Origin: Nissabacter sp. SGAir0207
GTDB lineage: Bacteria; Pseudomonadota; Gammaproteobacteria; Enterobacterales; Enterobacteriaceae
DNA: 64,000 bases
Direction: 5' to 3'
Assembly: GCF_005491205.1 (NCBI RefSeq)
Contig: NZ_CP028039.1
Span: 1-64,000, forward strand
Below the pieces are notes generated by a model that saw only the letters and a list, made by a program, of their open reading frames with translations, ran no database searches and was not told the origin of the DNA. The position numbers and the translations under genes are program-made. The stretch's first letter is position 1. The number at the start of each line of letters is the position of its first letter. Of the stretch, positions 5,804 to 59,958 are shown in pieces.

Positions 5804-5824
5804 ATTCTAGGAATTCTTACATCT
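5804..5824 (-). promoter_or_regulatory. Late-type promoter facing the darB remnant
   Basis: On the minus strand the sequence reads AGATGTAAG, six bases, TAGAAT. This is the architecture shared by nine minus-strand operons in the window. The 9-mer centre lies near -23 relative to the expected start. Confidence 0.6.
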
Positions 5825-5842
5825 AAGAGGGTTGTGGCTCCG

Positions 5843-7582
5843 ATGCCGAAATTTGCATACGACACCATTCGCAAAGCACTGGAAGCAGCAATGCCCGGTA
5901 GCGCATCGAATAAGGGGGTTCCTTTGGCACTGGGTCCCACCAGCAGCGGCGGTAATGGCGTGGTTTATTCACGCTCTGCCCTGTTTGGCAACGATGCGGC
6001 GGGAAAAGACTTCACTGACACGCTGGTTAATCCTGGCGGGCAAGTCTTAGATGAGGCGGTGCTACCTGAAGATCGGCTAATGCGCTATCCGTTTTTAGAG
6101 GAGATGGCCGCTTACCCAACCCTTTCGGCCGCGCTCAACATCCATATCTCCTATGCGTTTTCGATAGACAAAACCACCAATCTTTCGTTTCGGCTGAAGC
6201 CGGTAACCAATAGCGAAGACAAGGATTTTGAGTCTGCACAAACGCTCTGCGAGGAGCTGATGGCGGACATTGGGCGCACCATCAACGACGAATTACCGGG
6301 CTGGGCAACCATCATGGCTGTGTTTGGCACGGGCTATATCCGGCCGCACACCAAGCCCAAGGTAGGTATTACCGGCTTTGAGTCCAATTTCTACACCCTG
6401 CCCTATTTCATCCGTGAGTATGAAGTGGGTGGCCAGCTGGCCGGCTTCACCGGGGACTACCTGAAGGATGGCAATGGTGCGCTGGTATTTGCCAAGCCGT
6501 GGGAAATGGTGCCAATGCGCATCCCCTATTGGCGGCCGAAGAAAAACCAAATGCCGATGTACACCGGCACCGAGCAATTCAGCCTGTTATCTGATCCTGA
6601 AAAGCGCGTTCCCGTTGAGACCCAAAACTATGGGACCAGCCTGTTTGAGTATGCCTATGAACCGTATCTCAACCTACGGGCGGCCATCCGCTCGGTAAAG
6701 GGCACCCGCTTCAATGCCAGTAAGGTCGATCGGCTGATCGGGGTTCAAATGTCCTCCCTTGACCCGGCGCGTGGCGCGGAATACAGCCGTACCCTTTCCC
6801 AGCAGCTCAAGCGGTCTGCCGAACAGGTTGAGAAGCGGGCGCGCGGTCACAAAACCGCTCCGACCGTGATCAATACCCTGCTGCCTATCCTGGGGGCGGA
6901 CGGCAAAGGTCAGCTGCAAATCGACACGCAGACAATCCCGGTAGACATCACCGCTCTGGAAGACGTGATGTTCCACATCAAACAGCTGACCGCCAGTGTT
7001 GGAATGGATTACACCATGCTGGGCTTTGCTGACCAGATGTCTGGCGGGCTGGGGGAAGGCGGTTTCCTGCGCACGTCCATTCAGGCCGGCATGATCGCCA
7101 GCTGGTTGCGCGGCGGTGCCGCTGAGATGATTTACCGGATGTGTGACATTCACCTTGCCTTCAAATACGGGAAGGTTTACCCGCCCGGACAACGCCCGTT
7201 CGAGATCGAATTTAACTCGATGGCCACCAGCATCGAACTGGAAGAAAACGCCGCGCTCGATGGCCGCGCCAACTACGCCAGTGTGCTGGTGACCATCATT
7301 GATGCCATTTGCAATAACCCATCACTGGCCGGCTCCGAGACGTTCAAGCAGCTGGTGATGGGAGACATTTTAAAGGTGCCGCAGGAGCGCCTCTCCCTAC
7401 TGCTGACCGAGATCAAAAACGCCCCCAGCACAGAGGGCAACAACATGATGGAGAGCTTGGGCATCACGCCAGACCAGACGATCAGCGACCCGGATTTGCT
7501 GGCCATCATGAAAGCTATGCCCCGTGGCGATCTGGAGGACGTCATATTGAAAACATTCTGTAACCAAGAGGAAAAGCCATGA
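5843..7582 (+). CDS. prt: Portal protein, P1 Prt-like
   Basis: This 579-residue protein starts MPKFAYDTIRKALEAAMPGS. The longer upstream frame would cross the promoter region. Residues around 80-110 (LPEDRLMRYPFLEEMAAYPTLSAALNIHISYAF) and the core with FGTGYIRP, GMDYTMLGFADQMSGGLGEGGFLRTSIQAG match the general form of myovirus portal proteins. These form the dodecameric DNA gate at the head vertex. It overlaps the protease gene by 4 bases (ATGA) and is back-to-back with darB, reproducing the P1 order darB-prt-pro. The ribosome site (AGAGG, 5825-5829) is rather distant. The identification rests on synteny plus overall character. Confidence 0.75.
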   Translation: MPKFAYDTIRKALEAAMPGSASNKGVPLALGPTSSGGNGVVYSRSALFGNDAAGKDFTDTLVNPGGQVLDEAVLPEDRLMRYPFLEEMAAYPTLSAALNIHISYAFSIDKTTNLSFRLKPVTNSEDKDFESAQTLCEELMADIGRTINDELPGWATIMAVFGTGYIRPHTKPKVGITGFESNFYTLPYFIREYEVGGQLAGFTGDYLKDGNGALVFAKPWEMVPMRIPYWRPKKNQMPMYTGTEQFSLLSDPEKRVPVETQNYGTSLFEYAYEPYLNLRAAIRSVKGTRFNASKVDRLIGVQMSSLDPARGAEYSRTLSQQLKRSAEQVEKRARGHKTAPTVINTLLPILGADGKGQLQIDTQTIPVDITALEDVMFHIKQLTASVGMDYTMLGFADQMSGGLGEGGFLRTSIQAGMIASWLRGGAAEMIYRMCDIHLAFKYGKVYPPGQRPFEIEFNSMATSIELEENAALDGRANYASVLVTIIDAICNNPSLAGSETFKQLVMGDILKVPQERLSLLLTEIKNAPSTEGNNMMESLGITPDQTISDPDLLAIMKAMPRGDLEDVILKTFCNQEEKP

Positions 7583-8616
7583 GTCAGAAGGTACTCGCTA
7601 CCCATACCGATCGCTTCTCGCTGTTTGAGAAGGTACGCAAGGGCAAGCAAAACAACCGCAACTACATGCTGGAGGCGGTGAAATCGATGATTAACAGCCC
7701 GGAGACCCAAGAGGGGCTGCGACTGGGTGAGCTGTACGGCTATTACGGTCACACCCGCCGGGTAATGACGGGCAATATGGAGCTGCCGGAGACAGCGGTG
7801 GTGATGGTGGAAGGCAAAGCCGTGGTATTGGACAACGTGCCCTCCAACCGCACCGTTGAGCTGTCGGTTGACGATGACGGCGTAGTAACCCATACCGAAG
7901 AGATTTTTGAGACCCCCACCGGCAAGATCGTGGCCTCCATGCTTGAATCTCGCGCGGGCGGCTGGTCATGGGTGACCACCGGGCGCGATTCCCCGGCGAT
8001 CTCGATCCCCAAGGCATTCTATGGTTTCGACTATGTGACCATGCCGAATTTCATCAGCAAAGACCATCCAGCCGCAATGCATGAAAGTGCAGATTCACGT
8101 ACAGCGGCGATGCTGGAATCTCTGCAAAATCAGGGCTTCAGCAGTGACGCAGCCACCAGCATTATCGAGCACTATGATTTGCTGAGCCACCGCGAAGCCA
8201 TGATCGAAAGTGTGCTGCGCGTAGAGGAGCTGGAGAGCACCACCCTCATTGCTACCGGCCAACTGTTGGCAAAGGAGCGTGAGCTTGAGGAAACCCGCGC
8301 CATGCTTGAATCCTTACGCACTGCGAATGCCCAGCAGGGCAACATGATGGAAGGCCGTAAGTCCATGCTGGCCAAAGCCCTCGACCGGCTGCCGGTATTC
8401 GTCACTGAGCGCCATCGTTCAGCACTCGCCAACATGCAAACAGAGGATGATCTGGCCGTCGCAGTAGCGCTGTTTGAATCGCTTTCTCGCCCAGAGATCC
8501 GCACCCTACCTTTGCATAATGATGCAATTTTTGAGAGTAAAAAAACGAGTTGCGCTGTAGGGTACGACGACAATTCGATCGTATCTTTCACCAATGAAGT
8601 ACCACGATTCGGGTAA
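7579..8616 (+). CDS. pro: Head maturation protease/scaffold, P1 Pro-like
   Basis: This 345-residue protein follows the portal gene with translational coupling. The N-terminal two thirds (LGELYGYYGHTRRVMTG, ETPTGKIVASMLESRAGGWSWVTTGRD) resemble a prohead-protease fold. The C-terminal part is a long charged helix with repeated MLES segments (RTAAMLESL, TRAMLESLRTANA), as expected for a scaffold moiety cleaved during head maturation. The recurrent L-E-S motif may be the processing site, which is an inference. I cannot assign catalytic residues with certainty. Position immediately after the portal is as in P1. Confidence 0.65.
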   Translation: MSQKVLATHTDRFSLFEKVRKGKQNNRNYMLEAVKSMINSPETQEGLRLGELYGYYGHTRRVMTGNMELPETAVVMVEGKAVVLDNVPSNRTVELSVDDDGVVTHTEEIFETPTGKIVASMLESRAGGWSWVTTGRDSPAISIPKAFYGFDYVTMPNFISKDHPAAMHESADSRTAAMLESLQNQGFSSDAATSIIEHYDLLSHREAMIESVLRVEELESTTLIATGQLLAKERELEETRAMLESLRTANAQQGNMMEGRKSMLAKALDRLPVFVTERHRSALANMQTEDDLAVAVALFESLSRPEIRTLPLHNDAIFESKKTSCAVGYDDNSIVSFTNEVPRFG

Positions 8617-8711
8617 AATTCAACGCCTTAAATATACCCATATGATAATTGTGGATTAAAGGTTTAGTATTGCCGCTTGATCCTTTACACGATCCGCGAT
8701 TAAACTCCTCG

Positions 8712-8751
8712 GCGCATTGAGATCCTCTTAGGTTTCAATGCGCTTTTTTTT
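8712..8751 (+). terminator. Rho-independent terminator after the head protease
   Basis: The arms GCGCATTGA and TCAATGCGC are followed by eight T. It sits between the protease gene and acb2, so acb2 either has its own promoter or is reached by read-through. Confidence 0.7.
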
Positions 8752-8773
8752 CAGTCACTCAAGGAGCTATTCC

Positions 8774-9013
8774 ATGGAAAACCAGCACCGCTTGATTAAA
8801 ACCTATCGAGAGCTATCCGCTGAAGAGATCGCCTTAATGAATAGCGGCAAAGAGCTTGAAACAGCCGTACAGGCCTATGTTAACCGCCTGCATGAGGCGC
8901 ATAACGCTGGGGAAGTGGTGATTGAGCAACGTTGGCTGGCTATCGGCAAGACCGATATTGAGAAAGGTTTTATGGCCGTCATTCGCGCTATTGCAAAACC
9001 TGACGTGGCATAA
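8774..9013 (+). CDS. acb2: Acb2-like anti-CBASS cyclic-nucleotide sponge
   Basis: The 79-residue protein starts at the ATG preceded by AAGGAG. It contains HRLIKTYRELSAEEIALMN near the N-terminus and RWLAIGKTDIEKGFMAVIRAIAKP at the C-terminus. These are the two helical signatures of the small Acb2 (Tad1-like hairpin) family. Family members form hexamers that sequester cyclic di- and trinucleotides and so block CBASS, and some also block Thoeris signalling. The helix between them varies in the family. The protein sits alone between a terminator and the lytic replication gene, as expected for an early counter-defence gene. I am fairly sure of the family; the ligand range is not deducible from sequence. 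Confidence 0.8.
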   Translation: MENQHRLIKTYRELSAEEIALMNSGKELETAVQAYVNRLHEAHNAGEVVIEQRWLAIGKTDIEKGFMAVIRAIAKPDVA

Positions 9014-9066
9014 AAAAAAGGCCACCGAAACGGTAGCCTTACAAATAATTCAAAAATCTAAACCTG

Positions 9067-10044
9067 ATGAAAACTATACCAAAAAAAACCTGTTCTTTCA
9101 AGGAGACAGGTGATTTAAACGGCTATGGCCTGCGTCGCGCCATTGAAGCCCTGACCAATGATTGCTTGCCCCGCCCCGCGCGCGTTGTCCTGTCACAATG
9201 CTGCTCCGTCGCCGCCAGCACCAGTGCCTTCAAAATCACTATGGCTCGCTCCAAAATGGCAGAATTGTGCGGGGTAACCTCTGCAACCATCCGCCGTCGC
9301 TTCAAAGACTCTGTGAGTGCCACGATCATCACTGAAACTGCCGTATTTGATCGTAAGGCAGGCGGGTTCGGCCAGATGCCTACTGAGTACCAGTTTACCA
9401 AGCCATTTTTACAAGCTGCCAAGGCCTTTTGTAAGGCATGGGATACGGGTACAAGAGAGGTTAAGACATTAGCCCAAAAGGCCTTTAATGAGGCCATAAA
9501 AAATCTTCAAAATAAGCCACTTACCTCGGACACCCCCCGATCAAAATTATCGGCCACCCCCGATCAGGATGATCACCAAATACTTGGATTTACTGAATAC
9601 GAGAATCCAAAAGACTATGCGGCTCCGCCCGCAGATTTTGACAGGCCAAAGGCCAAAAGTTGGGATGATGCCCGTGCAGAACGCGCCACGACGCAAGCAC
9701 AGGATCACAAAGCCCGGCAGGAAGCAGCCCGTGCCAAGCGCCAGCAGTCCACCAGCAAGCTCAAGGGGCTGGCAAGGTGGGCATTCAATGGCAGCCGCGC
9801 CACCGGCAGGGCTACGCCACAGACAAGCCACAATGCCGCCCGCATGAGAGAGTCAGACCAGCGGCATGAGCAAACCACCAAAGATGCGGCACGGGCACAC
9901 CGCGAGGCACTGGCAAGCGGGTATAGCCCTCTTGATGCTATTCGCCGTGTGATGCCCGGCTACCGCCCTACTACCACCAGCAAGGATCACCATGACACAT
10001 ACCGGGACGTTAACCAGCCCACGCAAGCCAAAGGGGCGTTTTAA
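9067..10044 (+). CDS. repL: RepL-like lytic replication protein
   Basis: The 325-residue protein has an N-terminal winged-helix region (SKMAELCGVTSATIRRRFKDSV, about residues 62-83). It continues with FGQMPTEYQFTKPF and a long basic, Gln/Ala-rich C-terminal half. This suits a P1 RepL-type initiator, which drives lytic-cycle replication from an origin lying inside its own gene. Repeats at 9531-9566 could be that origin. The start is uncertain: the ATG at 9067 has no clear ribosome site, while AAGGAG at about 9100 has no standard in-frame start after it. The 3' end overlaps the ProQ-like gene. A replicative helix-turn-helix protein is the safe statement; RepL rests on context. Confidence 0.55.
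   Translation: MKTIPKKTCSFKETGDLNGYGLRRAIEALTNDCLPRPARVVLSQCCSVAASTSAFKITMARSKMAELCGVTSATIRRRFKDSVSATIITETAVFDRKAGGFGQMPTEYQFTKPFLQAAKAFCKAWDTGTREVKTLAQKAFNEAIKNLQNKPLTSDTPRSKLSATPDQDDHQILGFTEYENPKDYAAPPADFDRPKAKSWDDARAERATTQAQDHKARQEAARAKRQQSTSKLKGLARWAFNGSRATGRATPQTSHNAARMRESDQRHEQTTKDAARAHREALASGYSPLDAIRRVMPGYRPTTTSKDHHDTYRDVNQPTQAKGAF
9531..9566. repeat. Short direct repeats inside repL, possible oriL
   Basis: CACCCCCCGATCA is followed 10 bases later by CACCCCCGATCA, next to a GATGATCA. An AT-rich run precedes them in the coding sequence. In P1 the lytic origin lies within repL, so these repeats are an origin candidate. Nothing more than position supports this. Confidence 0.3.
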
Positions 10045-10577
10045 GCCTCGCCAGCCGTCTGCCACCCGCTCTCCTGCCCCGACGTCGGAGGAAATCAAAG
10101 CGGCGCACACGCAGGTAGGGACTGAAATCACCCGAAAGAAAAACCATAGCCAACGGATGTTTGTGAAAAAGCTGTTCCCGGCGCTGTTTTCTGGCGATCA
10201 CCCCTCCCGATGGAGAAAGGGATCAAAGACGCCATGCTGACGTCGATTGTGCGCCGTGGGCTGGACGTATCCGAGGCACGGCTACAGGCCGCACTTCGCG
10301 CCTGTTGCGCGTCGCTGGTGTACCGGGCAAGGGTATGCGCTATGCGTTTTCGCCGTGACATAGATGGCAAGCCAGTAGAGGCCATTGAGGAAGAAGACAA
10401 GAACCACGCATGGCAGAAAATTGTGGAGTATCGGGCGCGCCACCAGCTCCCCAGTTGCCGCCGGTGTGGAAGAAAAGCGCCGTTAAGAAGCGTCCGGCCA
10501 AGCCCGGCAAGCGTCGGGCACGGGTAGTAACCAGACCCGGCAGCACAGATCGGGCATCAAAACCCACGGCCAAGTAA
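9992..10577 (+). pseudogene. ProQ/FinO-domain RNA chaperone, broken by two frameshifts
   Basis: The product is spread over three frames. The first (from the ATG at 9992, AAGGA upstream) gives a basic linker and KKLFPALFSGDHP. The second gives MEKGIKDAML, LQAALRACC and a CAMRFRRDIDGKPVEAIEEEDKNHA segment, the hallmark of ProQ/FinO domains that bind structured RNAs. The third gives a basic tail (VWKKSAVKKRPAKPGKRRAR). Adding one base in the C-run at 10201-10208 and one in GGG at 10433-10435 restores a single protein of about 195 residues. It overlaps the repL 3' end by 53 bases. It may be a real decayed gene or a homopolymer error; I favour error because the same pattern recurs in essential genes. 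Confidence 0.65.
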
Positions 10578-10743
10578 TCCTGTACTGGCGCGATGCCCGC
10601 GCCGGTCATATAATGCACAGATATCCCGTCCGGGATAGTTTGTAGTGGTGTTTGCAATGGCCTTGGGTTACTCTTGGCCTAAGAATAATCCTATAAAATG
10701 CCTCATTGGGGCAGATGCTGACACACGTCTTGAGAGCTATTCC

Positions 10744-10962: not shown

Positions 10963-11108
10963 TCATCTGCGCTGACGCCAAAGAAAGCCGCCCCACGGAG
11001 CGGTTTTTTTATGTGCATTAAAATCCTTTTGCGTTCATAATCGCACACAATGACCCCGAAAAAGGCATGCCATGAGACCAATAAGAGGTATGTGTGTATC
11101 TTTTTTGG

Positions 11109-11137
11109 TTGCATCATGTAACCGATTTGGATACAAT
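11109..11137 (+). promoter_or_regulatory. Promoter and probable operator of higBA
   Basis: TTGCAT and TACAAT are separated by 17 bases. An inverted repeat GGTTGCAT/ATGTAACC covers the -35 element and would suit autorepression by the HigA antitoxin. Confidence 0.6.
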
Positions 11138-17897: not shown

Positions 17898-18383
17898 TCA
17901 GCCGGTAAGCTTGCCGCCAAAGTCCTGATAGGCCTTCAGGAGGCGATTGAGGTCGTTCTCATGCTGGCCATAGCCGGCACCTGGCAGGCTTGCCCAGATA
18001 TTGGCGCACTTCTTGACAGCTGACGTGATACGGCCGGCTTCGATATCAGCCAGTGCCGATCGCTCCTTTAGGAGCTGAATGCACAGCAGATCCTGGCTGG
18101 CCGCACTGAAATCCTTCAGGCCGAGCTGCTTTTTGTAGGCTGGCCACCAGCGATAAAGCTGCTGGTAAGCACCTGACGCCGTGGAGCGCTGCCCATTGCG
18201 GTTGAAAACCTTCCCCGTTCTGCCACTGGCAAAGGGGTGATCGGTGTAGTCGGTGAATACCTCTGGCTTACCGTCGATGCCGGTCACAATGACATCATAG
18301 CCGCCGTTGGTGGTCAGGGGATGGTGAAGGGTGCCTTCAGAAAAGCGCAGCATCTTCATGAATGCTGTGAGGTTTGCAGTCAT
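17898..18383 (-). CDS. Endolysin, lambda R-type lytic transglycosylase
   Basis: The 161-residue protein matches lambda gpR throughout. MLRFSEGT carries the catalytic Glu, followed by GYDVIVTGIDGKPEVFTDYTDHP, STASGAYQQLYRWWPAYKKQLGLKDFS and SNIWASLPGAGYGQ-like text (CANIWASLPGAGYGQHE). It cleaves peptidoglycan between MurNAc and GlcNAc, leaving 1,6-anhydro ends. There is no signal or SAR helix, so it needs a canonical holin. P1 itself uses an unrelated T4-type SAR lysozyme, so the lysis gene has been swapped. It has its own late promoter at 18475-18495 and a hairpin at the mRNA 5' end. Confidence 0.92.
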   Translation of the reverse strand: MTANLTAFMKMLRFSEGTLHHPLTTNGGYDVIVTGIDGKPEVFTDYTDHPFASGRTGKVFNRNGQRSTASGAYQQLYRWWPAYKKQLGLKDFSAASQDLLCIQLLKERSALADIEAGRITSAVKKCANIWASLPGAGYGQHENDLNRLLKAYQDFGGKLTG

Positions 18384-18474: not shown

Positions 18475-18495
18475 AGATTACCCAAAGTTACATCT
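18475..18495 (-). promoter_or_regulatory. Late-type promoter of the endolysin gene
   Basis: AGATGTAAC, six bases (TTTGGG), TAATCT on the minus strand. Confidence 0.65.
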
Positions 18496-23739: not shown

Positions 23740-24126
23740 TCATGTCCAGGGGAAAATGCGGTAGAGCGGGTTATAGAAGGAGTCGCCATGCACAATTTTC
23801 ACGTGCACGATCCAGGCACCATTCGTACTGATTTTACTGGTTGCCACATCCAGATACTCGCAGTTGGAGCCGGCGCGGGAGTGCTCCAGTGTCCGGCGGC
23901 CGCCGGTGATCACCGTGGTCGGGAACTGCGCATCACGTAACGTGTACTCGATGGTCGCGCCCTTCAGGCGGTTAAATTTGGTGTCGAAGAAGAAAGGGAT
24001 CCGCAGATACCCCTTTTCAACCTTATGTTCACCCACGCGCAGGCCGGTGATTTTCGACCGTTTCATGACAAAGCGATCGAAAACCATCGAAGCCCCGGCA
24101 GTGGAGAGTAAAAGCAAACCGATCAT
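23740..24126 (-). CDS. Secreted or membrane-anchored protein, lysis cluster
   Basis: The 128-residue protein has a short hydrophobic N-terminus (MIGLLLLSTAGASMVF) that could be a signal or anchor. A beta-rich domain follows with YLRIPFFFDTKFNRLKGATIEYTLRDAQFPTTVITGG. It overlaps the holin-like gene by 4 bases. I do not recognise it. The context suggests lysis or an envelope function. Confidence 0.5.
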   Translation of the reverse strand: MIGLLLLSTAGASMVFDRFVMKRSKITGLRVGEHKVEKGYLRIPFFFDTKFNRLKGATIEYTLRDAQFPTTVITGGRRTLEHSRAGSNCEYLDVATSKISTNGAWIVHVKIVHGDSFYNPLYRIFPWT

Positions 24127-24449
24127 CTGCCCCCCTTGCTAAAGAGCTGTGTTAATACTTTGCCAATGGCCTCACTGTTGAGGCGCTTGGCGATATGGAT
24201 CACCTCGTTCCCGTTGTTGCTGGTAAGCAGCACGGAAAAGTAGATGATGGATTCATCAAATTGCTGATGCCGCCCGATGTAGAAAGCCATCAGCCCAGCG
24301 GTGATGGCGATCGACGTTTCGGTTAAGAAGTCCAGAAAACTCCCTTTAATCCGTTCTTCTCTGATCCCCATGAGGAACACACCAATACCACTCAGAAAAG
24401 ACAGGCCTACGGCGATGGCAATCGGCACAAATTCGGTGGTATGCAGCAC
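24123..24449 (-). CDS. Holin-like protein
   Basis: The 108-residue protein has hydrophobic segments at about 7-27 (FVPIAIAVGLSFLSGIGVFLM) and 44-60 (TSIAITAGLMAFYIG). A third possible one lies around FDESIIYFSVLL, followed by a charged C-terminus. Such small proteins control release of cytoplasmic endolysins, which the R-type endolysin of this element requires. It is first in an operon under the late promoter at 24484-24504. The endolysin itself lies several genes away under its own late promoter, a split lysis cassette as in P1. Confidence 0.7.
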   Translation of the reverse strand: MLHTTEFVPIAIAVGLSFLSGIGVFLMGIREERIKGSFLDFLTETSIAITAGLMAFYIGRHQQFDESIIYFSVLLTSNNGNEVIHIAKRLNSEAIGKVLTQLFSKGGR

Positions 24450-24483: not shown

Positions 24484-24504
24484 ATTTTATGGAATGTTGC
24501 ATTT
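24484..24504 (-). promoter_or_regulatory. Late-type promoter of the holin/Dar operon
   Basis: AAATGCAAC, six bases (ATTCCA), TAAAAT on the minus strand. Confidence 0.6.
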
Positions 24505-24562: not shown

Positions 24563-24790
24563 TCAGGATGTTTCGGATTCTTCTACTGGGTAGGAGAAGG
24601 TGCCATCTGCGGCGTTGTAAATCATGCCGGCCTCGCAGGCCACGCCCTCCGGGATCAGTACCAGGGTGTAGCCTGGCATTTTGAAGGTGTTGAGAGTCTC
24701 AACAACCAGCTCCACAACGTCACTATTGTTGGGGATCATTGCGTACCAGCCAAACTGCGGTTCATCGTCGTAACTGTCTTGGGCGCTCAT
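24563..24790 (-). CDS. Small tail-fibre-associated protein
   Basis: I start it at MSAQDSYDDEPQFGWYAMIP (24790), with GGAAGC upstream, just downstream of a late-type promoter. It is acidic and 75 residues long. Its end, ACEAGMIYNAADGTFSYPVEE, resembles short C-terminal modules seen in enterobacterial tail-fibre accessory proteins. Function is unknown. Confidence 0.5.
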   Translation of the reverse strand: MSAQDSYDDEPQFGWYAMIPNNSDVVELVVETLNTFKMPGYTLVLIPEGVACEAGMIYNAADGTFSYPVEESETS

Positions 24791-24837: not shown

Positions 24838-24858
24838 AAAATACCGCAAGTTACATCT
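24838..24858 (-). promoter_or_regulatory. Late-type promoter before the small fibre-associated gene
   Basis: AGATGTAAC, six bases (TTGCGG), TATTTT on the minus strand. Confidence 0.6.
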
Positions 24859-28400: not shown

Positions 28401-28632
28401 CCCCGATGTTGAATGAGCAGGTGCCACCCTCTGCGCCAGAACTGATCAGTAGCTTGAGACCCCGGCCTGCCGAGGGTGTAAAGCCCTGGTAGATCCCCGC
28501 CCCGATGATGCCGCGCAACTTGCGGTTGATGGCCGCCGAGCTGTACGGCTCCCGGAACTGCACATCAGAAATCAGCGTAAGCGTCTCGGGCTGCGGAAAA
28601 CTTTTTGCAGTGACGATCGCGGAATCACTCAT
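25448..28632 (-). pseudogene. Tail fibre protein, S-like, split by a one-base shift
   Basis: The fibre starts MSDSAIVTAKSFPQPETLTL (28632) with a phage-fibre attachment domain. It continues through many short repeats rich in Ser, Thr, Ala and Gly (GALSAAGDVSASKALTVAG, GNLTVT-like units) forming a trimeric shaft. Near 25830 the frame leaves real coding sequence and stops. Adding one C to the C5 run at 25830-25834 (G5 on the coding strand) gives GGYDFFNGSSGDDQELIARF and continues to 25448, directly before tfa. The two frames together make about 1,060 residues. It may be an assembly error, a decayed gene, or a phase-variable tract changing the fibre tip. Confidence 0.8.
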
Positions 28633-29069
28633 GATGCACCGCCTGTTTGCAATTTCAGCGTACAAACAAAGCCTTTGCCTTGGTATAGCTGATCCTGCTG
28701 AATGCACAGCACCCCACAGGCCACCCCTTCGCTATCGCACAGCACCAACGTATCAAATGGGTAAGAGGTGTTTGCTGCCAGCGTCGAGGTATCGAGGCTG
28801 ACGTTGATGGTGATCACCCCGTTGCCATAAGACAAGGTAAGATTAGCGGTCGCAAACTGCGAGGTGAGATTTGCCAGGGTGAAATCTTTCGGGATAGACG
28901 CAATGTCATACGTGCCCTTACTGTTTTTGGTGACCAGGGAGGACGTACCGAATACGGCGGTTTTCAGCAAAAAACGCTGGCCGGCACCAATCTCTGATTG
29001 CGCGCGCCGCGCGTAGTAGTAAGAAAGCAGCTGTAGCTTACTGAGGCTGGCTGGTACTACGGTTGTCAT
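28629..29069 (-). CDS. Fibre-proximal structural protein (P1 R position)
   Basis: I start at MTTVVPASLSKLQLLSYYYARRAQSEIGAGQRF (29069), with AGAGGA upstream. The N-terminal helix and GAGQRFLLKTAVFGTSSLV are followed by beta-rich text. It lies directly before the fibre gene with a 4-base overlap and is the first gene after a late promoter and leader hairpin. A protein linking fibre to baseplate is likely by position. I do not recognise a family. Confidence 0.5.
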   Translation of the reverse strand: MTTVVPASLSKLQLLSYYYARRAQSEIGAGQRFLLKTAVFGTSSLVTKNSKGTYDIASIPKDFTLANLTSQFATANLTLSYGNGVITINVSLDTSTLAANTSYPFDTLVLCDSEGVACGVLCIQQDQLYQGKGFVCTLKLQTGGAS

Positions 29070-29193: not shown

Positions 29194-29214
29194 AGTGTAG
29201 GGAAACTAGCATCT
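29194..29214 (-). promoter_or_regulatory. Late-type promoter of the fibre operon
   Basis: AGATGCTAG, six bases (TTTCCC), TACACT on the minus strand; the weakest 9-mer match of the set. Confidence 0.5.
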
Positions 29215-37440: not shown

Positions 37441-38009
37441 TTACACCTTTCCAACGGCTGAATAGATGGCCACCGCGCGCGGGATCGCGCCACGGGCTGC
37501 CATGTCCTGCTCCAGCTCGATTTTACGCTGATAAAGCGAGGCCTCATCTGGCAGGTTGGACACATCCATTTTCTGGGCGATATAGGCACGGCGTACCCTG
37601 TCCATATTGGGGATGGCAATCAGTGCCTCGAGGTAGTTTTGCAAAATCCCCCGGATGGTTCGCGGCACGGTGCCCGCATCCAGATCCAGCGCGGTGAGGT
37701 CTTGCAGGTACTCTACAGTCAGCGGGTAGCGAAGCCCCGGGTTTGACTCAATCTCAATCACGCCATCAAACACATCGGCATATGCCCAGTCGCCCGAGGC
37801 GTCAGTGACAGCCACCAGCTCCAGGTAATCCGCCGGGCAGGGGAAGGAGAGGGGATCGCCCCGCTGGATGCGGGCGCGCGTGACAATGCCGGCGCGATCT
37901 TGATAGGCGGTCAGTGCTGCCACAAGCAACGCCTCAAGCTTGTCTGCCTCATCATGCATCAGTGGGGTAAAGCGGAGCTTCACGCTCTCAAGTAATTCGC
38001 GGGGGTCAT
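37441..38009 (-). CDS. Structural tail protein; start disrupted by a one-base shift
   Basis: The open frame extends to 38145 but runs through a terminator and late promoter. With one base added to the G5 run at 38001-38005, the coding strand reads MTPRELLESVKLRFTPLMHDE with GGAGG four bases before the ATG at 38009, immediately downstream of the promoter. Without the base, translation would need a GTG at 37983. The body (RIQRGDPLSFPCPADYLELVAVTDASGDW, DLDAGTVPRTIRGILQNYLEALIAIPNMDRV) is unrecognised. It adjoins tube-like genes, suggesting a neck, tube-completion or baseplate role. Confidence 0.6.
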
Positions 38010-38037: not shown

Positions 38038-38058
38038 ATCGTAAGGAAAGTAACATTT
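38038..38058 (-). promoter_or_regulatory. Late-type promoter of the tube/tape-measure operon
   Basis: AAATGTTAC, six bases (TTTCCT), TACGAT on the minus strand. It follows a terminator and precedes the 38009 start by about 22 transcribed bases. Confidence 0.6.
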
Positions 38059-41635: not shown

Positions 41636-43339
41636 TTAGCTGGAGGCGCTTTCGATGATCTGGCCGGTGCGGAAGTTGATGCCGCCTTTCTTGGCGTTGG
41701 TCAGCGTCAGCAGGGTGAAATACTGCGAACCGTTACGCGGGTGGATGCGGTTGATAGCCGAACCCCACAGAGTGGTGCGGTTGCGCAGGCCTGGCGTGGT
41801 CGGGTGCACGAACGGGATCGCCGGCACGGCGTCGCCGGTGACAAAGCCGGCTTTGCCCGGGTTTTCGTCGCGGCAGTAGCACAGCACGTCATAGGAGCCG
41901 AAGGTCACGCCCTGTTTGGTGAAGGCATTGCAAACACCGGTCGGGACTTCATACACCTTGATGCTGCCGAAGAGGGTGCCCACGAAGTGCACAAACGGCA
42001 CCTGGGTGTAATTCTCAGCTGGGGTGAACATGGACGGCGGCAGCATCTTGAAGAACAGCGCGGCATCGGAGCCGGCAAACATACCGCTTGAGCCGCTGCT
42101 CTGGGTGCGTTCAGCGATATCACGGTAGATCTGCTGCATCTTCGATTTGAAGATCAGGCTCCACACGTCCCAGTTGGTATCCTGCGGGATAGCCAGGTCG
42201 AAGGTGTCAGTCTTCATGGTGCGGCGGATCATGATGCGCAGGCGCAGCATATCCTGCTCATGGGACAGGTAGTCCTTCAGGGTGCGGTATTGCAGGCTGC
42301 CCAGGTCAATGCCGAACTCGCGTTGCGCGTCGTAGGCGGCCATGACGGTGTGCTCTGCTGCCAGGGCATACTGTGATGGGCGCACGGTGTACTTTTTCAT
42401 TTCCTGGTTGATCAGCGGGATCAGCTCAGGCGCGGCCTCGATGTTGATCTCAACTTCTGCTTCCAGCTTGGTGCCGGAGGCCGGTGCCATGGAGAAGGTC
42501 AGGGTGATCTGGCCTTTGGTGTAGTCCAGGGAAGAGGTCAGGGAGACCGCCGTGCCGGAGGCATCAGCGTAGGAGTGCAGCAGGGTGCCTTCACCGTTGT
42601 CTTCCGGGGTCGGCTCATTGCCGATGTACAGCACGGTACGCCCCTTACGGATCGGGATGTCCTTGCCTTCAAAGTCAGAGATTTTGAAGGTGAACACCTT
42701 GGTGGTGCCATCGCCCAGGGCGGAGAGCACGTAGTTGCGGCGCATCTGGGAGTAGGCACCCACAGACTGCATATCCAGCTTGTCACCGATCGCGTAGTCA
42801 CCGAAGGTGGTGCCGGCTACGTTGAAGATCTCGTAGATGTTGGACTCATCGCGCGGAACCGGGATGAAGGTACAGGCGTCGCCAGTCTGTGCGCCCAGCG
42901 CAACCGGCAGGATCATCGCCAGGAAGATAGCCTGGTGCAGGATGCCATCCTGACCGCTCATCATCTCAGCGTTCACGCTTTCCAGCATGGATTGGTTAAT
43001 GGTCTTCTGGCCGCCGGCGTTGCGGCTTTCTGCCATCAGGCAGTTTTCCAGCGTTTGGTGGCACATGGCCAGCAGGTCTTCGCGCGGGGCGGTTTTGTGC
43101 TTCGCTGCATAATCAGCATACGCAGCGCCCCAGGCGGTCACGATCTGGGAAACGGCAGACGGGTTAACACCCTCGAAGATCGGCTCTTGTTTCGCCGCCT
43201 CAAGCATGGCCACACGGCGTTCTTCCGCATTCTGGATAAAGCCGCCTTTGTTGAACTGCGCGTCAGACACGATGCGGGTCACACGACGCGCACGACTGGC
43301 GATGTCAGCAATATGCTGTTGATACTCTTTATTACTCAT
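41636..43339 (-). CDS. Major capsid protein (P1 gp23-like)
   Basis: I start at MSNKEYQQHIADIASRARRV (43339). The longer frame to 43516 crosses the late promoter and a terminator. The 567-residue product has an N-terminal helix likely removed by the head protease. HK97-fold sequence follows, with ILHQAIFLAMILPVALGAQTGDACTFIP, NQEMKKYTVRPSQYALAAEHTVMAAYDAQREFGIDLG and MIRRTMKTDTFDLAIPQDTNWDVWSLIFKSKMQQIY. The C-terminus VHPTTPGLRNRTTLWGSAINRIHPRNGSQYFTLLTLTNA suits a T4-like/P1 capsid. It is first in the operon from the strongest late-type promoter, as expected for the most abundant virion protein. Confidence 0.85.
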   Translation of the reverse strand: MSNKEYQQHIADIASRARRVTRIVSDAQFNKGGFIQNAEERRVAMLEAAKQEPIFEGVNPSAVSQIVTAWGAAYADYAAKHKTAPREDLLAMCHQTLENCLMAESRNAGGQKTINQSMLESVNAEMMSGQDGILHQAIFLAMILPVALGAQTGDACTFIPVPRDESNIYEIFNVAGTTFGDYAIGDKLDMQSVGAYSQMRRNYVLSALGDGTTKVFTFKISDFEGKDIPIRKGRTVLYIGNEPTPEDNGEGTLLHSYADASGTAVSLTSSLDYTKGQITLTFSMAPASGTKLEAEVEINIEAAPELIPLINQEMKKYTVRPSQYALAAEHTVMAAYDAQREFGIDLGSLQYRTLKDYLSHEQDMLRLRIMIRRTMKTDTFDLAIPQDTNWDVWSLIFKSKMQQIYRDIAERTQSSGSSGMFAGSDAALFFKMLPPSMFTPAENYTQVPFVHFVGTLFGSIKVYEVPTGVCNAFTKQGVTFGSYDVLCYCRDENPGKAGFVTGDAVPAIPFVHPTTPGLRNRTTLWGSAINRIHPRNGSQYFTLLTLTNAKKGGINFRTGQIIESASS

Positions 43340-43373: not shown

Positions 43374-43394
43374 ATCTTATGGAATGTTACATCT
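43374..43394 (-). promoter_or_regulatory. Late-type promoter of the capsid-sheath operon
   Basis: AGATGTAAC, six bases (ATTCCA), TAAGAT on the minus strand. The transcript would start about 25 bases before the capsid ATG. Confidence 0.7.
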
Positions 43395-45069: not shown

Positions 45070-45354
45070 TTAACTCACTGACAGGAGCGGCTCGCCGCTG
45101 GTTACGGTGGAACCACAGGAAACCGGATCGCCCTCGCAGACCACGGCCTTGCCGCCTACGGTAAACCAAGGGCGGGTAGACATGGCATTACCGGGGTGTG
45201 ATGACGTTCCGTCTGTATGGGAGGGATAGGCGTTACCATCCACCAGCACTGCAACGCCATTGACCGTGAAGAAATCCACGGCCTCGGCCGGCGGCCGGGA
45301 GGCAAACCCATCATGCCCAGAACACACGGAATTTTTTGTCGCTATGCCAGGCAT
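45070..45354 (-). CDS. PAAR-motif spike-tip protein
   Basis: The 94-residue protein starts MPGIATKNSVCSGHDGFASRPP and has PAAR-type repeats: VNGVAVLVDGNAYPSHTDGTSSHPG, then FTVGGKAVVCEGDPVSCGSTVTSG. Conserved His and Cys residues would bind the metal at the tip. PAAR proteins cap the central spike of contractile tails and pierce the outer membrane. The spike itself is encoded in another operon (54391). It overlaps the preceding gene by 13 bases. Confidence 0.8.
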   Translation of the reverse strand: MPGIATKNSVCSGHDGFASRPPAEAVDFFTVNGVAVLVDGNAYPSHTDGTSSHPGNAMSTRPWFTVGGKAVVCEGDPVSCGSTVTSGEPLLSVS

Positions 45355-46157
45355 TCGGCCGGCTCCAGCTCATGGGGCACCATATGCAGGCACTCATAGA
45401 TTTCTGGCGTATCAGCGTAGCGCTCGCGCTGCTCGGCAAGGCAGGAGGTGGAGATGAGGGAGTTTCCTTTTTGGGATAACTGGATAGCTTTCACCTGGGG
45501 CTGCTGGCCAAGCCAGACCAGGGCGCTTGAGACCTTATAGCCCGCCACCACCAGCCGGCACTCTGGGGAGACAAGGTTATAGACCAGGCGGATAAAGTCC
45601 GGGTGATATTGGTGAGCGTCATCGATAATCACCGTGTTTACGCCTGGCAGCACCGATTCAAGGTACTCGCGCGTGGCGTCCACCATCGGATCCCAGCACA
45701 GCCCCCACGTCAGCTTTTCATCCGTCGCCAGCACGTACTCTGTCCGCACAGAAAATAGGGCGTCCGCCAGGGCTAAGCCCGCGCCGGCATACCCATAGCG
45801 CAACATCTTGCGACACTTCAGCATGATGTCTTGGGTAGGGGAGATGACCATTACCACCTGATCACGATTCATCACCAGGTCATGCAGTGCCACCATGGCA
45901 CATGCTGTGGTCGCGCCTGTTTCTGGGGCGTGGAAGGCCAGAACATGGCGCTGGCTCTCCATGGCTGCCAATAAGCGCTGTTGCTGCCGGGTCATGCTCA
46001 ATTCGGGGAGCACGTGGTTCGCAAAGTAGCGCAATGAGCGCTCTTCTGGCGTGAACTCGTCCAGCATGGCATAGCCCATATTGCGGACGCGGTTGCTTAC
46101 CAGCTCGTTATGGTCAGGAAAAGTAATGCTCTCGAGAGTGGTTTTGAAGGAACCCAT
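45342..46157 (-). CDS. Degenerate terminase-like ATPase-fold protein
   Basis: The 271-residue protein resembles the N-terminal ATPase half of a large terminase. RQQQRLLAAMESQRHVLAFHAPETGATTACAMVALHDLV sits where Walker A is expected, but the P-loop is GATTA rather than GKT. VVMVISPTQDIMLKCRKML, NTVIIDDAHQYH (Walker B-like) and RLVVAGYKVSSAL (coupling motif position) follow. There is no nuclease domain. It probably cannot hydrolyse ATP in the usual way. A similar degraded protein lies at 49091-49894. The role may be regulatory or structural in packaging. The resemblance is by eye. Confidence 0.5.
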   Translation of the reverse strand: MGSFKTTLESITFPDHNELVSNRVRNMGYAMLDEFTPEERSLRYFANHVLPELSMTRQQQRLLAAMESQRHVLAFHAPETGATTACAMVALHDLVMNRDQVVMVISPTQDIMLKCRKMLRYGYAGAGLALADALFSVRTEYVLATDEKLTWGLCWDPMVDATREYLESVLPGVNTVIIDDAHQYHPDFIRLVYNLVSPECRLVVAGYKVSSALVWLGQQPQVKAIQLSQKGNSLISTSCLAEQRERYADTPEIYECLHMVPHELEPAECLA

Positions 46158-46185: not shown

Positions 46186-46206
46186 AGCCTATGGAAAGTT
46201 GCATCT
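46186..46206 (-). promoter_or_regulatory. Late-type promoter of the spanin/PAAR operon
   Basis: AGATGCAAC, six bases (TTTCCA), TAGGCT on the minus strand. Confidence 0.6.
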
Positions 46207-56047: not shown

Positions 56048-56886
56048 CAGACCACCTCCACCAGCTGCACCGCCGGAGCGGGCGGCACAATCGGCGCTAC
56101 GGTGGTGTAGGATACCCCGTCGCTGATGATTTCAATCTTGCCGCTGCTGGGTGTGCCAAGCCAGGCTGTAAAGAGCGGGGCAATGACGGTAACGGGGATG
56201 GCGGCAGCATAGATCCGCTCATTGGCCATTGGCAGGGTCAAATCATTGACCATCGACCCGCGCGGATCGCGCAGCAGACACTCCAGCTCCAGCGGACAGC
56301 CCGCCAGGCGGGTTTGGGCGGTGAAGTTGGTGTTGCCATAGGTGGCGAACTGGCGCAGCCAGGTAAGCAAAGCACCCGTCAGGGCGTTGAGCGTCTCCTT
56401 CTCGTTGGCCAGTACCATGATCGAGTATTCAATCTCCACCGGGTTGAAGGTCAGCAGCGCACTCGGAACGCCCTTGTCATCGGTCAGGTAGCCCGCATTG
56501 AAGTCGTCGACAACAACCGTGTTGTCATGCATCTGGAAGCCCGGAGTGCGCCCCAGGTTGATGATGGGCAGGGCATCTGCATTCAGCTCACCATAGCTAT
56601 TGGGCTTCTCATCCCGTAGCCCCGCGCCGGCCGCGCGCACCGCCCGCAGGAAGGCCTCCACATCGTCATAATTGCCAAACTTCAGTTTGTCCCGGGCGGA
56701 GCGCTTGAGAAAGCGCTTAAGCGGCCGCGCCGTGGCGCGCGTGTCACTCACGCTAAGGCCATCCAGCACCGCTAGCAGGGCATTGGCCAGCCCCGCGTCT
56801 ACGTCGCTGGTGGAGGACAGCTCACGCTTGCCATTGGGGGCAAACATTTCGCGCTTGAAGCGCATCATCAGCTCATTCTGTGCCAT
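56047..56886 (-). CDS. Baseplate/tail structural protein, unknown
   Basis: I start at MAQNELMMRFKREMFAPNGKRELSSTSDVDAGL (56886). The longer frame overlaps the previous gene in low-quality sequence, whereas this ATG overlaps its end by 14 bases, as elsewhere in this operon. The 279-residue protein has AVDDFNAGYL-like text, FNPVEIEYSIMVLANEKETLNALTGALLTWLRQFATYGNTNF and SGKIEIISDGVSYTTVAP near the end. It is probably a wedge or tail-completion subunit. No family is recognised. Confidence 0.5.
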   Translation of the reverse strand: MAQNELMMRFKREMFAPNGKRELSSTSDVDAGLANALLAVLDGLSVSDTRATARPLKRFLKRSARDKLKFGNYDDVEAFLRAVRAAGAGLRDEKPNSYGELNADALPIINLGRTPGFQMHDNTVVVDDFNAGYLTDDKGVPSALLTFNPVEIEYSIMVLANEKETLNALTGALLTWLRQFATYGNTNFTAQTRLAGCPLELECLLRDPRGSMVNDLTLPMANERIYAAAIPVTVIAPLFTAWLGTPSSGKIEIISDGVSYTTVAPIVPPAPAVQLVEVV

Positions 56887-57679
56887 CAAACATGCCCTTA
56901 TAGCTACGGCTTGGAATGCAGTAATACAACGTGCCCACGGCGGCGGTGCCGTAGTTGAACTTGCGGTGGACATACCACCAGCGCCGCACCGGCTCCCCGC
57001 TGGCCATATCCTCCATCCATTCCAGGATTGAGCCGATCGGCACGTCATGGGCGGCAATGCAGAGGATCAGCGCGTCGTCTGGCGCGCCGGTGTTTTCGTC
57101 AGTGTCGTTCATGGCATAGAAGTTGGGCATTTCATCGGGACAATCCACCACAACCACCAGCTCCGGATCCGCATAGGCCAGAGTCTCCTGGTTCGGGTCG
57201 ATTTTCTCGGCCGGCATCACCTCATAGCCATCATCATCGATTTGCACCTCGGACAGGCTGGCCGCGCGGAACAACACTGCGTCGAAGGCGTCAGGGTTAA
57301 GCTTTATCGCCTTAATCCAATCCTCACGTACCAGGTCATTAATTGCCTGATGCCCATGGAAGCGAGTACGCAGCCCGCTGACAATAGGGCGGCTGGCAAT
57401 AGCATCAGGTACAACGGTGCCACTATCAGCCCCGTCTGTGCCCGCAGGCGAAGCCTCAGCAGCATCAATCTCAGTTGTGTCATGTTGTTCCTCAGTATTA
57501 GCGGCTACTCCGCCTGTTTCTTTGCCATCACCAGCAGCATCGGCGGTGGGGTCGGTGCCGGTGTCGGCGGCCGGGGAGGCCTGTTCTGCGTCAGGGTGAG
57601 GAACATCCCCAGCAGTAGCACCACTGGAAGTAGCCGGCACAGCCGGCACGTCATCGAGCAGATCGTCATAAAACCCCAT
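56873..57679 (-). CDS. Tail/baseplate protein with acidic disordered N-terminus
   Basis: The first 90 residues are Ala/Asp/Thr/Glu-rich and low complexity. The remainder is globular: RTRFHGHQAINDLVREDWIKAIKLNPDAFDAVLFRA, LVVVVDCPDEMPNFYAMND, ILEWMEDMASGEPVRRWWYVHRKFNYGTAAVGTLYYCIPS. It shares one base with the stop of the preceding SWIM-like gene. A structural or assembly role is suggested only by the operon. Confidence 0.5.
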   Translation of the reverse strand: MGFYDDLLDDVPAVPATSSGATAGDVPHPDAEQASPAADTGTDPTADAAGDGKETGGVAANTEEQHDTTEIDAAEASPAGTDGADSGTVVPDAIASRPIVSGLRTRFHGHQAINDLVREDWIKAIKLNPDAFDAVLFRAASLSEVQIDDDGYEVMPAEKIDPNQETLAYADPELVVVVDCPDEMPNFYAMNDTDENTGAPDDALILCIAAHDVPIGSILEWMEDMASGEPVRRWWYVHRKFNYGTAAVGTLYYCIPSRSYKGMFDGTE

Positions 57680-58893
57680 CAGTTAGTTTTCCCTATTTGC
57701 TCAGAGAGCCATTTGTTAAAGGCATTCTCAGCCTGCTTGTCGGTCATGCCGGTCAGTTTCATGGCATCCTTGAAGCCCTGCTTTCTCATGCGGAGCTGCT
57801 CGGCCACCAGCTTTTTGGCGTCGTCGCGCTCCTGCTCCGCCTTTTTGGCGCGGGCAAGGGCAAGCTTCAGCTCGGCCGCCTTTTTGGCCGTGGCGGTGCG
57901 CGCGCGGGCGGCTTTTTTGCGGAGCTGCTCTATCTGGTCGCGGCTGGTGGCCTGCTTCTTGGCCATGGCCTGCTGGGCGGCCTGATAGCGGGCAAACTCC
58001 TTGCGCACCTTGTCTTGGTCAGTCTCGGCGCTCCGGTTGCGCCCCATGGCCTTCTGTTCGTCTTCAGTGAAGGTGCGGGTGGTTTTCTTTTTGTCATCAC
58101 CAAAGGCAACCTGGGTCGCGGCCTTCTTCAGTTGCTGGCCAAGCTGGCGCTGCCATGTCATCGACTGGAAGCGCGTCATGGTGTGGATCACGTGCTTGCA
58201 GGCGACGCCAGTCAAATCGGGGTTTCGCACCTTGGGGAAGGCGTATTCCGCCGGCGGCTTCAGGGCGTAATTGCCGGCCGTGGCCATGTAGCGATACCAA
58301 TACTGGTGACGGCCGCAATCACAGTCGAAGGAAACGCGGCCGGCGGCCAGCTGGCGGGAGAGGGTCATCAGGGAGGCTTTCTCATCCCCCACGTCCTCTA
58401 CATACCGATCCCACTCCTCAAAGCGCACCCGCACCAGGTGGTGATCGTCCATTGAGATGTCCGAGGCCTCGACCTTCACCATGGCGGTATTGTGCTGGAG
58501 GCGGATGAATATCGCCTTTTTGATGCCGCTGCCGTCATCCACTTTGTTGCTGGCGCGCTGCACATCGATCTTGGTGGATTGCGCCACCAGCTGGGCATAG
58601 GTGATGCCTGGCACATCGCTATTGAACTGGGTGCGGTGCGCCATGCGACCGGTGATAAACCGCTTCATGTCCTCGGGGGTGAAGAAGGTCCCCTCTTTTT
58701 TCTTGCCCAGCTCAAGGAACTTCTCCAGCTCCTTGTTACGCATCATGGCCGGCGTCAGGGTACGGCGCGCGCCCTGGCGGTTTTTGCGTTGGGTCTTGCG
58801 GATCCGGTTAAAAACCTTCAGGAACTCGGCCGCAGACAGGCCATGCGTGGCATAGCGGCCGTTCTCCTTGCGGTCAAAATCTGGGGATGGCAT
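57679..58893 (-). CDS. Large tail-operon protein with SWIM-like zinc motif and coiled coil
   Basis: The 404-residue protein starts MPSPDFDRKENGRYATHGLSAAEFLKVFNRI. Near residues 215-260 it has FDCDCGRHQYWYRYMATAGNYAL…VACKHVIHTM, a CxCx(n)CxH arrangement like SWIM zinc fingers. The last 130 residues are a Lys/Ala/Gln-rich coiled coil (RARTATAKKAAELKLALARAKKAEQERDDAKKLVAEQL). Such zinc-binding plus coiled-coil layout is unusual for a baseplate operon. It may mediate assembly or DNA contact. Family unknown to me. Confidence 0.5.
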   Translation of the reverse strand: MPSPDFDRKENGRYATHGLSAAEFLKVFNRIRKTQRKNRQGARRTLTPAMMRNKELEKFLELGKKKEGTFFTPEDMKRFITGRMAHRTQFNSDVPGITYAQLVAQSTKIDVQRASNKVDDGSGIKKAIFIRLQHNTAMVKVEASDISMDDHHLVRVRFEEWDRYVEDVGDEKASLMTLSRQLAAGRVSFDCDCGRHQYWYRYMATAGNYALKPPAEYAFPKVRNPDLTGVACKHVIHTMTRFQSMTWQRQLGQQLKKAATQVAFGDDKKKTTRTFTEDEQKAMGRNRSAETDQDKVRKEFARYQAAQQAMAKKQATSRDQIEQLRKKAARARTATAKKAAELKLALARAKKAEQERDDAKKLVAEQLRMRKQGFKDAMKLTGMTDKQAENAFNKWLSEQIGKTN

Positions 58894-58902
58894 CGCTTAT
58901 CC

Positions 58903-59250
58903 TCAGCTGACGTAGAGAGAGCCGGAGATCTCCGGGCTGGTGGCGGAGAAGGTGTTGATCTGCTCACGGATCCACGCCAGGGTAGGCACCGTGATTTCAG
59001 TGCCGGCAACCATGGCGTCGCACTCATCCTCCAGCCCACACACCAGCGTGACTACCCAACGCAGCTCGGCAGTGCCCCAGATACGGTAGGCAATCAGGTC
59101 AGGGCGATAAATTTCATCGGCCAGGATGTCATAGGCCAGCAGGTCAGAGTCATAGCTCAGGGACTTGGCCATAATCTCCTGGCGCATATAGGCGCGCAGG
59201 ATGGGATCGGCTACGTTCCGGTCGTCCAGGCGACTAATGGCATCACTCAC
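58903..59250 (-). CDS. Baseplate wedge protein, gp53-like
   Basis: The 115-residue protein contains YRPDLIAYRIWGTAELRWVVTLVCGLEDECDAMVAGTEITVPTLAWIREQI. The pattern of a Y-x-x-x-G-x-x-x-L/R-W-V-V segment followed by a short LysM-like GTEITVP end is seen in gp53-type wedge proteins and related LysM baseplate subunits. It overlaps the first gene of the operon by 4 bases. It would sit at the base of the wedge holding the inner ring. Confidence 0.6.
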   Translation of the reverse strand: MSDAISRLDDRNVADPILRAYMRQEIMAKSLSYDSDLLAYDILADEIYRPDLIAYRIWGTAELRWVVTLVCGLEDECDAMVAGTEITVPTLAWIREQINTFSATSPEISGSLYVS

Positions 59251-59891
59251 AGGTAGTTCCCCTTGCCCGTCAGCGGGCTGTAAGAGGCCTGCTCGATAGA
59301 TTGGCGCTCAAAGGCGCTGACGATAGTCCGCAGGGGATTAAGCGGCGAGGCTGGCTCCTGGGCGCGTGTGAAGCCCAGCATCTTTTCCAGGTATTGGACG
59401 CTGGCCACGTTGTTAAAAGTGGTGGCAAAGGTGCACAGCATGGTAAGGCTGTGCTCACCGCGCAGCTGTTCCCAGTCGATACGGTAAATGGTTGACCCTT
59501 TCGCATCCCGCGCCACGTCTACCAGGGTGTCAGGAATGTTGAAGCGCCCGCCGGCATTGCGGGGGAAGGTGATTGCTTTCTGGCGCACCAGCTCGCGGTA
59601 GATGTCCAGGGCTTCCACCAGCACCGGCTTGCCGCTGGCACCTGCATCCCCCAGGCGCACCCGCACCCCGGCGCGCGCGGTGATGAAGTCGCTGGACTCA
59701 TCCACCAGCACCTCAAAACCCTTCTGCTCCAAGTCGTGGATTGTCTCAATCAGCTGCTGCTCGAGCTGGTGGCGGTTATCAGGCAGCTTGATGGCATCAG
59801 CAATGAACAGCTCTCCATCCTTCCAAGCGGCTTTAGCCAGCATTGGGGGGCTGGTGGTCAGGCAGATGGCACAGATTTTTTTGTTGATCAT
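59247..59891 (-). CDS. First gene of the baseplate operon, unknown
   Basis: The 214-residue protein starts MINKKICAICLTTSPPMLAKAAWKDGELFIADAIKLPDNRHQLEQQLIETIHDLEQKGFEVLVDESSDFITARAGVRVRLG. This reads like an RNase H/terminase-nuclease-type alpha/beta beginning, although acidic residues alone do not prove activity. The second half (IYRIDWEQLRGEHSLTMLCTFATTFNNVASVQYLEKMLGF) is helical. It has the late promoter at 59938-59958. Packaging regulation or a structural role are both possible. Confidence 0.45.
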   Translation of the reverse strand: MINKKICAICLTTSPPMLAKAAWKDGELFIADAIKLPDNRHQLEQQLIETIHDLEQKGFEVLVDESSDFITARAGVRVRLGDAGASGKPVLVEALDIYRELVRQKAITFPRNAGGRFNIPDTLVDVARDAKGSTIYRIDWEQLRGEHSLTMLCTFATTFNNVASVQYLEKMLGFTRAQEPASPLNPLRTIVSAFERQSIEQASYSPLTGKGNYL

Positions 59892-59937
59892 GCAGGGTAT
59901 CCCGTGGCGCGCCCGCCTGGATTGGCGAACAGGCTGA

Positions 59938-59958
59938 AGAATACAGTTACTTACATTT
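59938..59958 (-). promoter_or_regulatory. Late-type promoter of the baseplate/spike operon
   Basis: AAATGTAAG, six bases (TAACTG), TATTCT on the minus strand. Confidence 0.6.

Follow-up and report, generated by a model that had tools for sequence, protein, structure and literature searches.

Predicted Lpa-type late promoters with a diverged box on a P1-like phage-plasmid of Nissabacter sp. SGAir0207

How does a relative of phage P1 switch on its lysis and structural genes? The question is raised by positions 1 to 64,000 of contig NZ_CP028039.1 from Nissabacter sp. SGAir0207 (assembly GCF_005491205.1), a stretch of 64,000 nucleotides called the window here. By its sequence the 101,764-bp contig represents a phage-plasmid of the P1 kind. 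Genes for portal, sheath, tail tube, baseplate, holin, terminase and further P1 functions can be identified on it, and its gp23 has 62% identity to the P1 protein and 78-79% to the one encoded by a Pantoea plasmid. To our knowledge, late control of the P1 type is known from P1 only. Upstream of operons in the window, nine minus-strand sites share one layout, a 9-mer followed at a set distance by a -10 hexamer, and an inspection of the letters alone (the original prediction) took them for late promoters. Judged from the sequence, they are almost certainly late promoters of the Lpa type. Very probably the whole arrangement belongs to a P1-like phage-plasmid that would use its own Lpa and the host SspA, and in which the promoter box and the Lpa recognition helix have drifted from those of P1 with the geometry kept.

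All nine 21-mers are present on the minus strand, with the coordinates and letters first given for them. An expression that covers them, ARATGYWAS-N6-TANNNT, has nine matches in the window. When the gap was varied from 0 to 20 on both strands, all nine stood on the minus strand with gap 6, and every other combination gave none; in the register of the original prediction, the six-base gap is exact at 9/9 sites. In 200 dinucleotide shuffles of the window the mean number of matches was 0.055 and the maximum 1. Since the expression was built from the nine sites, this comparison alone is too favourable and held-out evidence weighs more. The rest of the contig (37.8 kb beyond the window) contains one further match, at 74715-74735, 24 bp upstream of pacA. 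The whole genome contains 12 matches, ten on this contig and two in the other ~4.93 Mb, and a reversed control pattern matches twice in the whole genome. Chromosomal use of the promoters was rejected, as the two chromosomal matches do not exceed chance (the shuffle rate predicts about four in 4.93 Mb).

The ten sites all avoid our own gene calls (from a simple hexamer caller, which missed lpa), which leave 19.3% of the contig non-coding, and each is followed after 24-124 bp by a start codon of its own strand. The 9-mer, described as fixed, is invariant at only five of its nine positions across the ten sites. Similarly, the statement that each site faces a lysis or structural operon or the darB remnant evidently holds for seven of the nine; at 24838 and 46186 the first gene is an open reading frame (ORF) of 75 and 271 amino acids, respectively. 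A candidate eleventh member at 99253-99273 on the minus strand (score 16.9) was left uncounted, lying inside a 675-amino-acid ORF of the other strand, with the next minus-strand gene 1490 bp away. The sites and the genes that they face are listed below in window coordinates, which equal contig coordinates.

5804-5824, minus strand: predicted late promoter facing the darB N-terminal piece; -22 box (P1 register) 5814-5822, -10 5804-5809.
5119-5763, minus strand: darB-like N-terminal piece, 214 amino acids; profile match to positions 2-211 of a 2278-position profile.
5777-5795, plus strand: possible variant late promoter of the portal/pro operon, AGTGAACAT-ttgc-TACGTT; weak, absent from the original list.
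5843-7582, plus strand: portal protein (prt); phrog_1497, P1 prt 53%.
18475-18495, minus strand: predicted late promoter facing the lysozyme gene; -22 box 18485-18493.
17898-18383, minus strand: endolysin/lysozyme; phrog_90 endolysin, Pantoea and Citrobacter homologues annotated as glycoside hydrolase family 104.
24484-24504, minus strand: predicted late promoter facing the lydA-lydB-hdf-darA operon; -22 box 24494-24502, placed like P1 LPdar.
24123-24449, minus strand: holin lydA; phrog_1527 holin, P1 LydA 46%.
24838-24858, minus strand: predicted late promoter facing the 75-amino-acid ORF (24563-24790) upstream of lydA; -22 box 24848-24856.
29194-29214, minus strand: predicted late promoter facing the tail-fibre operon (R, S); -22 box 29204-29212, placed like P1 LPs.
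28629-29069, minus strand: tail fibre assembly protein (R); phrog_2032.
38038-38058, minus strand: predicted late promoter facing the pmgC-tub-pmgB-sit operon; -22 box 38048-38056, placed like P1 LPsit.
37441-37983, minus strand: pmgC, head morphogenesis; phrog_1851.
43374-43394, minus strand: predicted late promoter facing the gp23-gp22 operon; -22 box 43384-43392, itself a perfect inverted repeat (ATGT-A-ACAT), placed like P1 LP23.
41636-43339, minus strand: gp23 homologue (major capsid protein in the P1 record); phrog_1014, P1 gp23 62%.
46186-46206, minus strand: predicted late promoter facing the 271-amino-acid ORF (45342-46157), then upfC (PAAR); -22 box 46196-46204, TTAACA at 18 bp.
59938-59958, minus strand: predicted late promoter facing the mat-26-25 operon; -22 box 59948-59956, corresponding to P1 LPmat.
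59247-59891, minus strand: mat (maturation control) homologue; P1 mat 40%, phrog_1837.
58903-59250, minus strand: gp26 baseplate wedge, after mat; P1 gp26 52%, phrog_1269.
74715-74735 (contig): tenth predicted site, before pacA, beyond the window.

The plus-strand site at 5777-5795 was not kept by our motif search of the element and scores 5.2 with the element's own matrix, hence its description as weak. The Pantoea and Citrobacter relatives have sites resembling it at a similar distance from prt, and it may be a further member of the family.

The P1 record (NC_005856) annotates at least 11 late promoters, each with a 9-bp "-22 region", a spacer of 4 bp (9 bp in LPhot) and a -10. The 9-mer of the original prediction starts two bases before the P1 box, and this produced both the "six-base gap" and an exaggerated difference from P1. 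When the promoters are aligned by the -10, the likeness to P1 becomes closer than first described: in all ten sites a box of 9 bp has its centre near -22 and is separated from the -10 by 4 bp, as in P1 except at LPhot. The box is ATGTAACTT in the window versus AAGTGACTT in P1, with seven of nine consensus bases alike, so that the difference in sequence is in part an error of register. Single sites come nearer, for example ATGTTACTT at 38038 versus AAGTTACTT in P1 LPs. The full layouts read AG-ATGTAACTT-N4-TANNNT in the window, with TCC right after the box in 5/10 sites, and AC-AAGTGACTT-N4-TANNNT in P1, the preceding bases of the element being mostly AG or AA. Moreover, the element's box is less symmetric, with 4.8 of 8 positions in inverted repeat compared with 6.4 in P1 and 2.07 in random sequence.

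Many operons are common to both. Of the 11 P1 promoters, seven are clearly matched on the element, ahead of the corresponding genes mat, lyz, lydA, R, pmgC, gp23 and pacA; the lyz gene was matched by function, tblastn having found no P1 homologue. An eighth, that of prt, has only the weak counterpart at 5777-5795. No counterpart of LP26, LPpmgL or LPhot was found on the element, where gene 26 follows mat in a single operon. Extra to the P1 annotation are the promoters before the darB piece, before the 75-amino-acid ORF upstream of lydA, and before the 271-amino-acid ORF and upfC.

An activator had been expected outside the window on the same element, and a search for a small activator gene found one. 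Contig positions 76545-76937 encode an Lpa homologue that is 37-39% identical to P1 Lpa and scores 92.4 bits against PF25716 (cut-off 35). Its closest named relative is the Lpa of C. californicus (Chimaeribacter), at 82%; a genome of the same genus (G001) encodes one at 84-85%, and the Pantoea and Citrobacter elements at 70-71%. Judged by the first two of these values, the host may be a Chimaeribacter. The host has SspA, the co-activator of P1, at 85% identity over 209 amino acids. Passages in PMC10695390, PMC8201110 and PMC4382096 support the roles of Lpa and SspA in P1 late transcription, and passages in PMC8198154 that of Lpa only. A sequence search of the PDB with the Lpa alignment gave five weak hits up to E 10, none of them Lpa, and G332 and G295 gave Lpa-like hits below threshold only. 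None of the recurrent 14-mers listed for the region before lpa resembles the C1 operators of P1.

Beside lpa, at contig 77390-78552, lie a gene with a CdiA-CT RNase A-like toxin domain and a CdiI-type immunity gene; contig C78 of G001 has lpa and relatives of this pair in identical order. The G001 Lpa is by sequence an orphan: on its 164-kb contig, tblastn of the element's gene set found no structural gene, and no good box was found (best 10.4). The interval from lpa to pacA (contig 74885-76538) holds a partition gene of the ParM/StbA type and one more ORF, an arrangement shared by the Pantoea, Citrobacter and Serratia relatives; in P1 the partition genes are ParAB and lie elsewhere.

What the DNA itself shows is the set of sites with their geometry, the orthologous operons behind them, the lpa gene, the host SspA and the divergence of box and helix. 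From these we infer Lpa binding, SspA dependence, start sites and timing as follows. During lytic growth, the element's Lpa, a small winged-helix activator, would bind the 9-bp box centred near -22. Together with host SspA on sigma-70 RNA polymerase, it would recruit the polymerase to promoters that have a -10 and lack a -35, so that the lysis, head, tail and packaging operons would be switched on together. The contact between Lpa, SspA and polymerase would set the position of the box and Lpa alone its letters; a fixed geometry with a drifting sequence, as seen between this element and P1, would then be expected.

Relatives of the element extend this picture. With a matrix of the ten sites (score >=16; 30 shuffles per relative), six sites were found in the plasmid of Pantoea sp. 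CCBC3-3-1 (NZ_CP034366) and nine in the phage-plasmid of Citrobacter freundii (NZ_CP056338), against 0.20 per shuffle of each; P1, JK004 and G081 gave one each, and D6, G205 and G368 none. The Pantoea and Citrobacter plasmids share box and geometry with the element, but their individual sites differ. For both plasmids the promoters come from the present analysis, the gene tables covered being confined to protein genes. A motif search was then applied to the regions preceding as many as 13 orthologous genes per element, with the box kept as far from the -10 as in P1; it covered 11 elements, among them this one. With the spacing imposed, so that the fixed geometry is here an assumption and not a result, a box was recovered in 9/10 relatives, with clade-specific sequences: acAAGTGACTT in P1, JK004, G293 and G419; agATGTAACTT in this element, Pantoea (only four clear sites) and Citrobacter; aaAACTCACTT in G081 (Serratia type); ggaaATCACAAAC in D6; and cgcaaATCTCTAAC in G368. 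The Serratia element L160 has a G081-type box before pacA. G205, an 81-kb element with an Lpa, gave no common box by expectation maximisation, no shared 9-mers and at most 1/11 regions with any of five matrices; in Pantoea agglomerans L161 and Enterobacter kobei L162 no clear box was called among the few upstream regions read. Weak picks (Citrobacter mat at 226 bp, several in Pantoea, darB and upfC of P1 and JK004) were not used for the class consensus. D6 resembles the element in having an Lpa family member (BPP1_LPA, 192 bits) and a recurrent box at the imposed distance; it differs in that this box, ATCACAAAC, is not palindromic in the P1 register (2.0 of 8 symmetric positions) and its Lpa is 26-27% identical to the element's.

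The recognition helix of Lpa varies as well. In 43 aligned sequences of 64 found, sorted by eye, it falls into four types, roughly SS(V/L)SEIYLRM, DVDKRDVYLRL, LVEKNDIYIRL and V(S/T)RxxVTNIIRHF, and these types coincide with the box classes wherever both are known. The Lpas of G368, G205, L161 and L162, outside this set, have helices of their own.

Does the drifted box mean a changed specificity? Several observations weigh against the proposed model or parts of it, and are best considered with the alternatives that they favour. A possibility, which we regard as less probable but by no means negligible, is that there is one tolerant specificity, the element's Lpa reading P1-type boxes and its own alike, and that the sequences drifted without functional change. 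Seven of the nine bases are indeed common when box and P1 box are in register. The Citrobacter element is intermediate: at a threshold of 1% background, 7/11 of its upstream regions score with the element's matrix and 8/11 with that of P1, which counts against a simple split into classes. In addition, box similarity follows late proteins generally. Its correlation with Lpa identity is strong (rho 0.885, from 28 non-independent pairs among eight elements), but seven other late proteins give rho 0.53-0.93, gp26 standing above Lpa. Since these proteins also track the box, specific co-evolution of Lpa and box is not proven, and co-variation beyond ancestry is unsupported; a co-evolved specificity is nevertheless likely on the sequences compared.

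Opposed to a tolerant Lpa are the same matrix tests read across the two clades. The P1 matrix finds 3/11 of the element's late-gene upstream regions, the element's own 8/11 (having been trained on them) and other matrices 0-1/11; reciprocally, the element's matrix finds 3/10 of those of P1. Held-out Pantoea reaches 5/11 with the element's matrix, and the P1 matrix finds 8/10 in P1 itself, 7/10 in held-out JK004 and 8/10 in G293, a near copy of P1. Specifically, at box position 2 all ten sites have T, against A in most P1 boxes; at position 5, A stands in 8/10 and T, also used by P1, in 2/10, against G in most P1 boxes. The residues of the recognition helix also differ by clade. The activator of different specificity that had been proposed is still plausible, and a functional specificity distinct from that of P1 appears likely from these comparisons. 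A broader reading, to which we give slightly better than even chances, is that the late promoters of P1-like phage-plasmids have diverged into four or more specificity classes (that of P1, that of the window's clade, the Serratia one, and that of D6 with G368 as a sub-class). Each Lpa helix would read its own box, and the activator-box pairs would be orthogonal to one another. With the box at a constant position, the contact with SspA and polymerase would be constant too.

It is very unlikely that the sites are instead ordinary sigma-70 promoters, of the extended -10 or UP-element type, active without any phage activator. All ten do have TANNNT, and the site at 46186-46206 has TTAACA at 18 bp, an exception to the earlier statement that no -35 is evident. 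On average that statement holds, since the mean best match to TTGACA is 2.6/6, not above the 2.86 of 950 TANNNT on the minus strand; TG stands at the extended -10 place in 0/10 sites, and a box is conserved at a fixed place on an element that has an Lpa gene. That the motif arose by chance or post hoc, as an expression fitted to nine sites might suggest, is hardly credible given the held-out tenth site at pacA, the enrichment on one contig and the sites before orthologous operons in two other plasmids.

Some further observations concern the genes behind these promoters. The element's darB consists of the N-terminal piece at 5119-5763 and a C-terminal piece at contig 97253-97762, on one strand; if the contig is circular, about 9 kb lie between them, with a DprA-like gene (PF02481), a glyoxalase, an MbeB N-terminal region and a 675-amino-acid ORF without Pfam hit. 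P1 itself may have two unannotated late promoters, before darB (P1 17292-17310, ATTGCACCT-taat-TAGAAT, with one change in JK004) and before upfC (P1 65096-65114, AAATAATCT-aagt-TAAAAT). These candidates have the lowest scores in the P1 set, and the -10 of the former is already annotated under a predicted sigma-70 promoter. PacA (contig 73464-74690) is only 29% identical to P1 PacA, the neighbouring PacB 62%. In 6/6 elements read at this point (this one and five relatives), a Dam site GATC straddles the junction of box and spacer in the pacA late promoter, and further GATC occur nearby. On the contig, GATC sites cluster most densely within pacA (8 in 150 bp, ~74409-74560), the place of the pac site in P1. 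A coupling of methylation to the late promoter is possible.

As to earlier work, none of the papers listed, in listings that in several cases gave only part of those found, treats late promoters of P1-like phages beyond P1 by its title or start of abstract, an earlier description in the D6 genome paper or the 1991 Lpa paper being possible; a text search of PMC10067587 and PMC6799933 found neither Lpa nor late promoter. In the element and its relatives, nature provides activator-promoter pairs that differ in box sequence but keep one geometry. With such pairs it can be tested directly which residues of Lpa recognise the box, whether phage-plasmids sharing a cell activate each other's promoters, and why the box of an SspA-dependent activator sits at -22. 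The boxes also help to locate late operons in phage-plasmids whose proteins are mostly hypothetical on record. If the specificity classes are real, two such elements in one cell would keep separate late programmes.

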